Below are positions 5,743-48,886 of a stretch of DNA of 64,000 nucleotides, piece after piece (within the stretch, counting starts at the first letter, position 1; each line of letters begins with the position of its first letter). The DNA is taken from NCBI GenBank assembly GCA_028280845.1, contig JANQKZ010000031.1, positions 1 to 64,000 on the forward strand, written 5' to 3'. Below the pieces are notes generated by a model, which searched no databases, had not been told where the DNA came from, and was given only the letters and a program-made list of their open reading frames with translations. The stretch comes from Opitutales bacterium (lineage in GTDB: Bacteria; Verrucomicrobiota; Verrucomicrobiia; Opitutales; JABSRG01). The translations under genes and the position numbers were made by a program.

Positions 5743-7890
5743 TTAGCTTCTGGCCGGTTCGCGCGAGGAGGATTCAACAATTTTCGGAAGGAGGCTCTGC
5801 GGAACCTGCTCAAAGTGGGAAGGTGTCATCGCGTAAGATGCACGGCCCTTGGAAAGGGAGCGAACGTCGGTCGCATAACCAAACATCTGCTCGAGGGGAA
5901 CGTGGGCGGTGATGATGGTCATGTTACTTTTGGACTCCATGCCCTGGATCTGGCCGCGGCGGCGATTCAAGTCGCCCATGATATCCCCCTGATATTCATC
6001 CGGAGTCGACACTTCGACCGACATCACTGGCTCCAGCAAAACCGGGCCCGCCTTAGCCATGGCGTCTTTGAAGCCAAAGATACCGGCCATTTTAAAAGCC
6101 ATTTCGGAAGAGTCGACCTCGTGGAAGGACCCGTCGAACAACTCAATCTTGAAGTCGACCACCGGGTAGCCGGCAACGGTGCCATTGTTGGAAGCTTCCA
6201 TCACACCGTCAAAGGTAGGTTTGATGTATTCCTTGGGAATCACCCCGCCAACGATCTTGTTGTCGAGCTCAACACCCTTCCCCTTATCCTGCGGGATAAT
6301 CCGCATCACGCAGTGGCCGTATTGACCACGCCCCCCGGACTGGCGGACAAACTTACCCACCCCTTCAGCCGGTTTGGTGATGGTTTCACGGTAAGCGATT
6401 TGCGGGCGACCGGCTTCGGCTTCGACTTTAAATTCCCGGAAAAGACGGTCGCGAATAATGTCGAGGTGGAGCTCACCCATGCCGGCAATGATAGTCTGGC
6501 CGGTTTCTTCATCGGAACGTACCACAAAAGTCGGGTCCTCCTCAGCCAGGCGCTGGAGCGCGAGGGACATCTTTTCCTGGTCGGCCTTGGTATTCGGCTC
6601 AATCGACATGGAGATCACCGGCTCGGGGAAACTCGGGGGCTCCAGGCGGATATCCAGGTCACGGGTGCAAAGGGTGTCTCCGGTCACGACATCTTTCACC
6701 CCGATCAGGGCACAGATATCTCCAGAATAGGCCACGTCGATGTCTTCGCGGGAGTCAGCCTTCATCACCATCAGGCGGCTGATCCGTTCCGTCTTACGGG
6801 TCCTTGGGTTGTAAAGGGCGGTGCCCTTCTTGAGCGTACCTTGATAAATGCGGAAGAAGACGAGCTTCCCCACATAAGGGTCGGTCATCAGCTTGAAAGC
6901 CAGGCCGGCCACGTCGGCAGCGTCATTAGGCTCGACAACGGTTTCTTTCTCTTCGTCGTCGTAGGCCTTCATTGGGGGCAAGTCAAGCGGTCCGGGCAGG
7001 TAGTCCACCACGGCATCCATCAGCATTTGCACCCCCTTATTCTTAAAGGCAGATCCGGGAATCACTCCGGTGAAGTTCAGGCTCAGGATCGCTTTCCGAA
7101 TGGCGAGTTTCAACTCGTCCTGGGCAATCTCCTCTCCTTCGAGATACTTCATGGCCAGCTCGTCGTCGAAATCACAAACGGCTTCAATCAGGCGTTCGCG
7201 ATATTCTGCGACTTGGTCCACCATGTCGGCAGGAATATCGACCACATTGAACCCGATACCGGATTCGTCCGATTCGTCGTAGATGTAGGCCTCTTCTTTA
7301 ACCAGGTCGATCAATCCCTTGAAATTTTCTTCAGAGCCAATGTTGAGGAACAGGGGATGGGCATTGCCTCCCAGCTTGGTCTTGATGCTCTCCACCGCAC
7401 CCAGGAAGTCGGCGCCCATACGGTCCATCTTATTAATGAAGGCCAGGCGCGGGACGTGATACTTGTCCATCTGGCGCCACACCGTTTCGGACTGGGGCTG
7501 CACCCCTTCTACCGAGGTAAATACGGCAACCGCTCCATCCAGAACCCGGAGGGAACGCTCCACCTCAGCGGTGAAGTCCACGTGGCCGGGGGTATCGATG
7601 ATGTTGATCCGGTGCTCAATGTTGGCGAAGGGACCATCTTTGGTGGTCCAACCGCAGGAAATCGCAGCAGAAGTAATTGTGATTCCACGCTCGCGCTCTT
7701 GCTCCATCCAGTCAGTAACAGCGCTACCTTCGTGGACCTCACCCATCTTGTGCACCACACCAGAGTAGAATAATACCCGCTCAGTCGTCGTAGTTTTACC
7801 AGCGTCAATATGCGCAGCGATACCAATATTCCGTGTATACTCTAACGGAAATTTTCTATCTGCTGAATTTGCTGAGGAAAGGTCGGCCAT
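5743..7890 (-). CDS. fusA: Elongation factor G
   Basis: 715 aa; G1 [29 protein letters not shown]. Confidence 0.98.
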
Positions 7891-16010: not shown

Positions 16011-16035
16011 GTGTATTGACACAGTGTCAATACAC
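16011..16035. repeat. 25 bp inverted repeat GTGTATTGACAC-A-GTGTCAATACAC upstream of the GNAT gene
   Basis: Perfect 12 bp arms, 1 bp spacer; arms related to the palindromes at 45979 and 47951. Confidence 0.8.
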
Positions 16036-45978: not shown

Positions 45979-46018
45979 GGTGTCAATACACAGTGTATAT
46001 ACACTGTGTATTGACACC
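45979..46018. repeat. 40 bp perfect palindrome GGTGTCAATACACAGTGTAT|ATACACTGTGTATTGACACC
   Basis: Direct reading; sits in the divergent tgt/pabA intergenic region. Confidence 0.92.
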
Positions 46019-47188: not shown

Positions 47189-47689
47189 ATGGCGATATTC
47201 GACAAAGATCCTTACGAAAACCTGGCCGCATTGAATGCCATGGTCTCGCTCGCCACCGGCACCGACCAGTTCCAGTCTGACCAGATTCAGGCAGCCATCC
47301 AGTTTTGCCGGAATCAGGCCGAAGTCGTTTCCAGCAGCAAGAGTCAGCAGGCCATGGAAACCTCCAAGGCCTATACCGATATCGTCGACCGGCTGGTTAA
47401 GCTTCATGTTGAGGAAGGGTCCTCCTTCGGGTTCGGACACTGGAATCTGGGGCACCATGAATACGACCCACTGTTCATCCGTGCCCATCTGATCAAAGAA
47501 CTGAAACGGATCAGCGGATTTGAAGAGGCGCTCCTCTTGATTACCGGTCTACGGGAAGCGCTCTGCCCGCCCGGGAAATACTGGACCCAGAAACGGTCGA
47601 CCCGCTACCAGGAAGCCATCTCTTATATCGAGAGCCTGGCCGTCCAATATAAGACACCTAAAACCAAACTCAGCCTCCTCTTTGTCTAG
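47189..47689 (+). CDS. Hypothetical protein
   Basis: 166 aa, compact ORF with good coding character; no family recognised. Confidence 0.65.
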   Translation: MAIFDKDPYENLAALNAMVSLATGTDQFQSDQIQAAIQFCRNQAEVVSSSKSQQAMETSKAYTDIVDRLVKLHVEEGSSFGFGHWNLGHHEYDPLFIRAHLIKELKRISGFEEALLLITGLREALCPPGKYWTQKRSTRYQEAISYIESLAVQYKTPKTKLSLLFV

Positions 47690-47690
47690 C

Positions 47691-47948
47691 TCACTCCCCC
47701 GGTTGTAGCCAGTCCAGCATCAGGGCCTTGATCTGGCGCTGGTAACTTAAACCCTTCAGCTCACATTTCGCCTTAAAGGCATCCAGCAGCGGTTCCGGCA
47801 CCCGCATCGAAATCATCCGGGACGCCACTTCCGGTCCACTGTGCTGTGAACGATACTCACTTCCCTTTTCCACAGCAAAACGCCCCAACTCCACAGCGAC
47901 CTCTACCGCATCCCGCACCCGTTTTTCATGCACATTTATCGAATCCAT
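47691..47948 (-). CDS. Orphan ribbon-helix-helix (CopG/BrnA-like) protein
   Basis: 85 aa; C-terminal ISMRVPEPLLDAFKAKCELKGLSYQRQIKALMLDWL resembles RHH antitoxins; no toxin ORF adjacent. Confidence 0.7.
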   Translation of the reverse strand: MDSINVHEKRVRDAVEVAVELGRFAVEKGSEYRSQHSGPEVASRMISMRVPEPLLDAFKAKCELKGLSYQRQIKALMLDWLQPGE

Positions 47949-47950
47949 GA

Positions 47951-48002
47951 AGCGTCAATACACAGTGTATATACATTGTGTCAATACGCTGTGTATATAC
48001 AC
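47951..48002. repeat. Two direct copies of a 24 bp unit (CGTCAATACACAGTGTATATACAT / TGTCAATACGCTGTGTATATACAC) abutting the RHH start codon
   Basis: Copies begin at 47953 and 47979; unit matches one arm plus centre of the 45979 palindrome. Confidence 0.88.
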
Positions 48003-48058
48003 CTGCGGATTGAGATGTAACTGGTTCGGGTGCGGTGGGAGGAGGAGAAGGGGTAAGA

Positions 48059-48430
48059 TTAGACGTGCTGGTCAACGAGGATGGGGTTTCCATCCGGATC
48101 CGAGATGACGAAGCTGGCAGGGCCGGTGGAGGATTCATCGGCCTCTTCGCTAAATTCAATCCCCTGGGCTTTTAACTCCTGTTGGAGTTCACGGACATCC
48201 TGGAAGGATTCCAGGTGGTTACAATCCTGATCCCAGCCGGGGTTAAAGGTGAGGATATTCTTATCAAACATCCCTTGGAACAAGCCAATGATGTGATCGG
48301 CATTTTTGAGGATAAGGTAGTTATGATCCATTTCACCAGCGATGACCTGGAATCCCAATTTTTCATAGAAGGCCTTAGAGGCCCGAAGATCTTTGACAGC
48401 TAAGCTGACGGAGAATGCACCTAATTTCAT
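48059..48430 (-). CDS. VOC-family (glyoxalase-like) protein
   Basis: [43 protein letters not shown]...[13 protein letters not shown]; start at 48430 preferred. Confidence 0.88.
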
Positions 48431-48541
48431 ACAATCCTTTCTGAGGTGGGAATTGTGGGCGCCCTTTTCTCTGGTTACCATCCTAATTCATCGAAATATA
48501 TTTAGCTCGAAGCGGTATTCGAGCTCCCTCAAACTGACAGG

Positions 48542-48886
48542 ATGTCTGAATCCACTATTTTTGAAAAAATAATAGCGGGGGAAATTCCCGCCACGATTGA
48601 GCATGATGACGAGCACTGTGTGGCGATCCGGGATATCAATCCGCAGGCGCCGGTCCATGTACTCCTCATCCCGAAAAAGCGGATCACTCGTCTCAGTCTG
48701 GCGGAACCCGAAGATCACCGGGTCATCGGACATCTCCTGATGATGGCCAAGGCGGTGGCAGCCAAACTTAAATTGGACGAGGGGTATCGGGTGGTCATCA
48801 ATAATGGCCCAAATGGTGGGGAGGAAGTCCCCCATCTCCACGTCCATTTGCTAGGTGGCAGGCAAATGGCCTGGCCTCCGGGATGA
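48542..48886 (+). CDS. HIT-family protein
   Basis: 114 aa; MSESTIFEKIIAGEIPATIEHDDEHCVAIRDINPQAPVHVLLIPKKRI; HLHVHLLGGR. Confidence 0.93.
   Translation: MSESTIFEKIIAGEIPATIEHDDEHCVAIRDINPQAPVHVLLIPKKRITRLSLAEPEDHRVIGHLLMMAKAVAAKLKLDEGYRVVINNGPNGGEEVPHLHVHLLGGRQMAWPPG

Follow-up and report, generated by a model that had tools for sequence, protein, structure and literature searches.

An Opitutales genome carries private arrays of palindromic boxes at a 13-bp period, the only four-box array lying at the start of an RHH-like gene

Does the repeated, operator-like sequence in front of a small RHH-like gene mark its product as the master of a regulon? The question is raised by the window, that is, the whole stretch of 64,000 nucleotides analyzed here (contig JANQKZ010000031.1 of an Opitutales bacterium, positions 1 to 64,000), and we treat that role of the RHH-like protein, put forward in the original prediction, as a hypothesis. 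The sequences concerned are real, lineage-private, modular and binding-site-like arrays with a putative binder. We favor, with a probability of about 0.4, the plausible, unproven reading that they are binding platforms, most likely for the RHH-like protein, which would repress its own gene and bind the other 20 arrays.

The RHH-like gene and its four-box array

The array unit is a 12-bp dyad box, GTGT-NNNN-ACAC, plus one A/T base, which gives a 13-bp period. The box formula is GTGT(CAAT/ATAT/ATTG)ACAC, and its three kinds of center are named C (CAAT), C' (ATTG, its reverse) and P (ATAT). The RHH-like gene (47691..47948, minus strand) encodes 85 amino acid residues, of which the C-terminal residues 43-77 resemble CopG_antitoxin PF12441 with an E value of 2.4e-5 and 25.4 bits, below the curated cut-off of 28. 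The lone-sequence AlphaFold model has a pLDDT of 63, with two C-terminal helices and no strand, and was too weak for a fold search; no credible relative of solved structure was found.

A C-P-C-P array of 51 bp (47952..48002), the genome's sole four-box array, stops 3 bp short of this gene's ATG at 47948, so that the units lie right upstream of the start codon, as originally described. Its boxes are GCGTCAATACAC (47952-47963), GTGTATATACAT (47965-47976), GTGTCAATACGC (47978-47989) and GTGTATATACAC (47991-48002). The two tandem 24-bp copies first noted here are present at 47953-47976 and 47979-48002, 26 bp from start to start with 2 bp between them; the true unit is 13 bp, each copy being two boxes joined by one A/T base. 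The four boxes at 13-bp period sit at the gene's own start, a statement that does not imply a location relative to a mapped promoter, and a scan scored no sigma-70 promoter within the array. Since the ATG is 3 bp from the array and shows no evident Shine-Dalgarno sequence, the annotated start codon may be wrong.

The relatives reported elsewhere in the window are also present: one at 45981, in a C-P-C' array (45980..46017) whose 38 bp form a perfect palindrome and which separates the divergent tgt and trpG-nrdR, and the other a C'-C array (16011..16035) of opposite box order, located 19 bp past a stop codon and 34 bp ahead of a GNAT gene. The lack of a partner toxin was likewise borne out, as the RHH-like gene is flanked by a conserved orf with no assigned function and by a VOC/glyoxalase-superfamily gene (48059..48481, minus strand, the same as the RHH-like gene; caller's preferred start 48430) that belongs to a lineage-specific block. 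With no adjacent toxin gene and no PADLOC match, a type II toxin-antitoxin locus was ruled out.

Grammar of the arrays

A pattern search of the genome (4.79 Mb in 62 contigs; 2 or 3 mismatches allowed) found 21 arrays of two to four boxes, with 55 boxes and 34 spacers in total. Nine box arrangements, direct and inverted, were found: C-P-C' in nine arrays, C-P in three, C-C' and P-C' in two each, and P-P, C-P-P, C-P-C, C'-C and C-P-C-P once each, P-C' being C-P on the opposite strand. All nine keep the 13-bp register, and therefore it is box identity and phase that are conserved, not one fixed sequence. Outer half-sites read GTGTCA in 30 of 42 cases and inner half-sites GTGTAT in 64 of 68, while the inner GT of the half-site is invariant (110/110) and the 16 changes at positions 1-4 all fall at positions 1-2; some of the variable positions were already degenerate in the second search pattern, but arrays with up to two changes elsewhere were still detectable. 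The spacer bases divide evenly into 17 A and 17 T; G and C never occur.

C-P-C' and C-C' form strong hairpins, C-P and C-P-C weak ones, and a hairpin is thus no property common to all arrays. The two spacers are complementary to each other in nine of the 11 three-box arrays, a pattern that could stem from symmetry of the whole palindrome or from common descent. The 25-bp array core holds 38.6 bits of information, twice the 18.8 bits required to pick 21 sites, an excess that fits recent copying of sites or two proteins reading the arrays.

These two features are expected from the strongest competing explanation, that the arrays are a species-specific intergenic palindromic repeat of REP-like behavior, spread by recent copying, with 13-bp units gained, lost or inverted. 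The array at the RHH-like gene would then be one more insertion with no regulatory role. We regard this as possible but somewhat unlikely. Near-identity over 25-38 bp at unrelated loci, together with the information excess and the paired spacers, speaks for it; however, decay of one palindrome would hardly yield arrangements such as C-P-C, C'-C and C-P-C-P, two positions take up most of the changes, spacers are A/T only, and nothing is common to the loci outside the array. Array flanks share only weak matches, among them a 65-bp likeness between two loci, and show no per-locus inverted arms, and a larger mobile element or MITE was rejected.

Genome-wide number and placement

In this genome the true patterns had 35 to 70 matches and their reversed controls 0 to 5, and the window itself has four matches compared to none in its shuffled versions. 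Under a third-order Markov model, one given 25-bp two-box array should turn up about 1e-10 times in a genome; the 21 observed, not hundreds, agree with the small set of sites first supposed. The contig with the RHH-like gene (C62) carries five of them, at 16011, 45980, 47952, 85888 and 111306, and its four arrays besides the RHH array exceed the 0.8 expected (p 0.008). Isolated single boxes outside arrays number 14, almost all inside genes. Exact isolated copies of GTGTATATACAC occur five times outside arrays (loci L080, L081, L083, L087 and L088) in relation to about 0.04 expected under the same model; four of the five are in genes and three read as the codons GGT GTA TAT ACA (Gly-Val-Tyr-Thr).

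Genes were called with our own hexamer caller, trained on 464 kb (86.6% coding), on which the background statistics also rest; the caller errs in places, for instance in preferring a spurious reverse ORF (48488-48847) over the HIT gene. By these calls all arrays are intergenic except one, which lies inside a low-scoring, doubtful ORF. Six arrays (including the one in the doubtful ORF) are between divergent genes, two between convergent genes and 13 between tandem genes, and divergent pairs do not significantly outnumber convergent ones (p=0.18). The distance to a start codon is 85 bp or less in 13 of the 21 arrays, a proportion close to the gap-uniform null of 0.60 and above the gap-length-weighted null of 0.34. 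Placement between genes is thus well established, placement at promoters is not; across the 21 arrays the start distances show no promoter preference beyond intergenic position.

The functions of the genes beside the arrays are mixed and incoherent. They include DNA polymerase B, putA/dapF, comEC/GNAT, an ADP-ribosylglycohydrolase, a cNMP-domain protein, GNAT/SDR, cytochrome c assembly/hemH, clpS/nrdG, cysS, YHYH/PQQ dehydrogenase, GFO-IDH/sulfatase, a molybdopterin oxidoreductase, ADH/GH43, SMP-30, trpF, a glycosyltransferase, argS, macB/rplT, tgt/trpG-nrdR and GNAT, where dapF, hemH, nrdG and rplT are names that we presume from reading the translations. The small regulon of the original prediction is therefore upheld in its number (about 20 sites, essentially all intergenic), whereas the expected promoter enrichment and a coherent set of neighbors did not appear. 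Positions that fit a random choice of intergenic gaps, next to incoherent neighbors, favor a repeat family.

Placement between genes with no promoter bias would also suit an architectural protein, and a second alternative is that another protein, with its gene elsewhere, binds the arrays and that the RHH-like gene is merely one target; such a binder could be a transcription factor or act in the nucleoid or in segregation. The site grammar does not name its binder, and adjacency to the RHH-like gene alone is weak evidence. We nevertheless consider another binder unlikely, as the sole four-box array is at the RHH-like gene, 3 bp from its start codon. A role as transcription terminators or 3'-end hairpins is very improbable: they are palindromic, several lie 12-19 bp past stop codons and two arrangements form strong hairpins, but a T4 tract occurs within 12 nt in only one of the 21, the hairpins of C-P and C-P-C are weak, and six arrays lie between divergent genes.

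Distribution and history of the locus

The two-box pattern with one mismatch matched one of 373 genomes of the order, which is this genome, and the 372 others are without an array. A looser pattern, GTGTNNNNACAC-N-GTGTNNNNACAC, matched two of 390 genomes of the phylum; the second match, at a single place in genome G162 and with unrelated centers, is about what chance allows. No array turned up when GTDB species genomes and viral contigs were scanned for exact matches, in collections from which records very near this genome were possibly left out. Homologs of the RHH-like protein at E<=1e-3 were absent from the 389 other genomes of the phylum, with values of 0.008 or worse among genomes of the order, and none was found in GTDB, viral or plasmid collections. 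The palindrome was also sought in genomes lacking the RHH-like gene, and none was found. Motif and protein are each present in one genome only, which agrees with a link between them, although a single co-occurrence cannot prove it. The absence of arrays from relatives speaks for a recently copied repeat and against a binder encoded elsewhere, since a conserved regulator should leave arrays in relatives and none was seen.

In the sole other genome found of the same family (G001), trpG, nrdR, an orf and the HIT gene are contiguous (L092, 7994-9924). Here, a block containing the RHH-like gene, its array and the VOC gene (47690..48541) interrupts the trpG-nrdR-orf166-HIT row after 47689, with both genes of the block on the strand opposite to the row. 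This block was either gained in the present lineage or lost in G001. The orf at 47189-47689, between nrdR and the HIT gene, encodes a conserved 166-residue protein with no Pfam match, and a 158-residue orf resembling it occupies the same place in G001. The heme cluster of G001, considered as an empty site, was uninformative, its gene order being different.

Proposed binding by the RHH-like protein

What is established is the grammar of the arrays, their number, their position between genes and their confinement to one genome. Beyond this, we infer that the arrays are read by a protein, that the RHH-like protein is this reader, and that its binding alters transcription. The preferred reading, arrays as binding platforms, supposes that the symmetric 12-bp boxes would be bound cooperatively at 13-bp period by a sequence-specific DNA-binding protein. 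Boxes in shuffled order, a fixed register and A/T-only spacers suggest such a cooperative, symmetric binder, and the RHH-like protein of 47691-47948 is the natural candidate because its gene adjoins the longest array, the only one of four boxes. Each box could be taken as an RHH operator in format, with the half-site GTGT, a 4-bp A/T-rich linker and the half-site ACAC. In the operators of AmrZ, Arc, CopG and omega, the half-sites flank a short linker at which the minor groove is narrowed (PMC3325190), and omega binds cooperatively to arrays of direct and inverted repeats (PMC4803016). By occupying the four-box array next to its start codon, the RHH-like protein would act as a repressor of its own gene, and it would also bind the other 20 arrays.

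Several observations point to the RHH-like protein: arrays are essentially all intergenic while isolated boxes are mostly in genes, four extra arrays are on its contig, no strong rival transcription factor gene directly adjoins those other arrays at which the two nearest genes were examined, and motif and protein are private to the same genome. Against it are the lack of promoter enrichment beyond intergenic position, the incoherent neighbors and the 38.6 bits in relation to the 18.8 needed; the PF12441 match below cut-off, the lack of a solved relative, the pLDDT of 63 with no strand and the doubtful start codon; and the fact that about one array would, by our own estimate, stand next to some regulator gene by chance, a coincidence that is not improbable. 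A further-reaching version, which we hold to be doubtful, is that some 20 modular, cooperative 13-bp arrays across the chromosome are read by a lineage-private RHH protein with no recognizable relatives, encoded inside the otherwise conserved trpG-nrdR-orf-HIT row; these arrays would not chiefly be promoter operators but a small, recent regulatory or architectural platform whose sites were spread by copying.

If the RHH-like protein reads the arrays, they would represent a regulon or platform at a very early stage, with regulator and sites confined to one lineage, and the origin of a set of binding sites, by copying or by point mutation, would be directly testable. If it does not, they are a repeat of palindromic modules, held to a strict 13-bp grammar, which matches none of the tested families.

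Comparison with known systems

REP sequences of the GTAG/CGTC superfamilies, whose definition includes a terminal GTAG or CGTC tag, are like these arrays in being short, palindromic and intergenic, in belonging to one genome and in having multiple units per locus (PMC3733652). The arrays differ in that they lack a conserved GTAG/CGTC tag, occupy only 21 loci, keep a strict 13-bp register and have no box near Y1 transposase genes. Tagged REP with RAYT largely fails as an identification, as the tag or its complement lies within 12 nt of two of the 21 arrays. Its absence from the other 19 weighs against the repeat family, as does the lack of any box within about 1.5 kb of the Y1_Tnp (RAYT-type) matches in this genome, of which there are four (L093-L096).

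NrdR boxes share ACAC/GTGT half-sites and an A/T-rich center with the arrays, of which one lies upstream of trpG-nrdR and one beside nrdG; however, the half-site order is different. The best match to the NrdR box ACACWATATWGTGT in the arrays has four mismatches in 14 positions, a separate box with two mismatches lies upstream of nrdD, and a relative with NrdR has no arrays, so that this reading was rejected. The near-consensus NrdR box upstream of nrdD (L028, about 6555-6602) reads CCACTATATATTGTGT on the minus strand, with a weaker second one about 30 bp off.

Type II toxin-antitoxin operators with a CopG-family antitoxin resemble the locus in having an RHH-like candidate autoregulator and palindromic sites at its start, whereas here no toxin gene is adjacent and about 20 further arrays lie elsewhere. 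The omega heptad arrays of pSM19035 and the AmrZ, Arc and CopG operators likewise have short half-sites, direct and inverted, with A/T-rich linkers (PMC4803016, PMC3325190). Autorepression by a small RHH protein, as in the omega/RHH operators, is putative here, and the arrays differ from those operators in their 12-bp box, 13-bp period, half-site and dispersal as about 20 chromosomal arrays.
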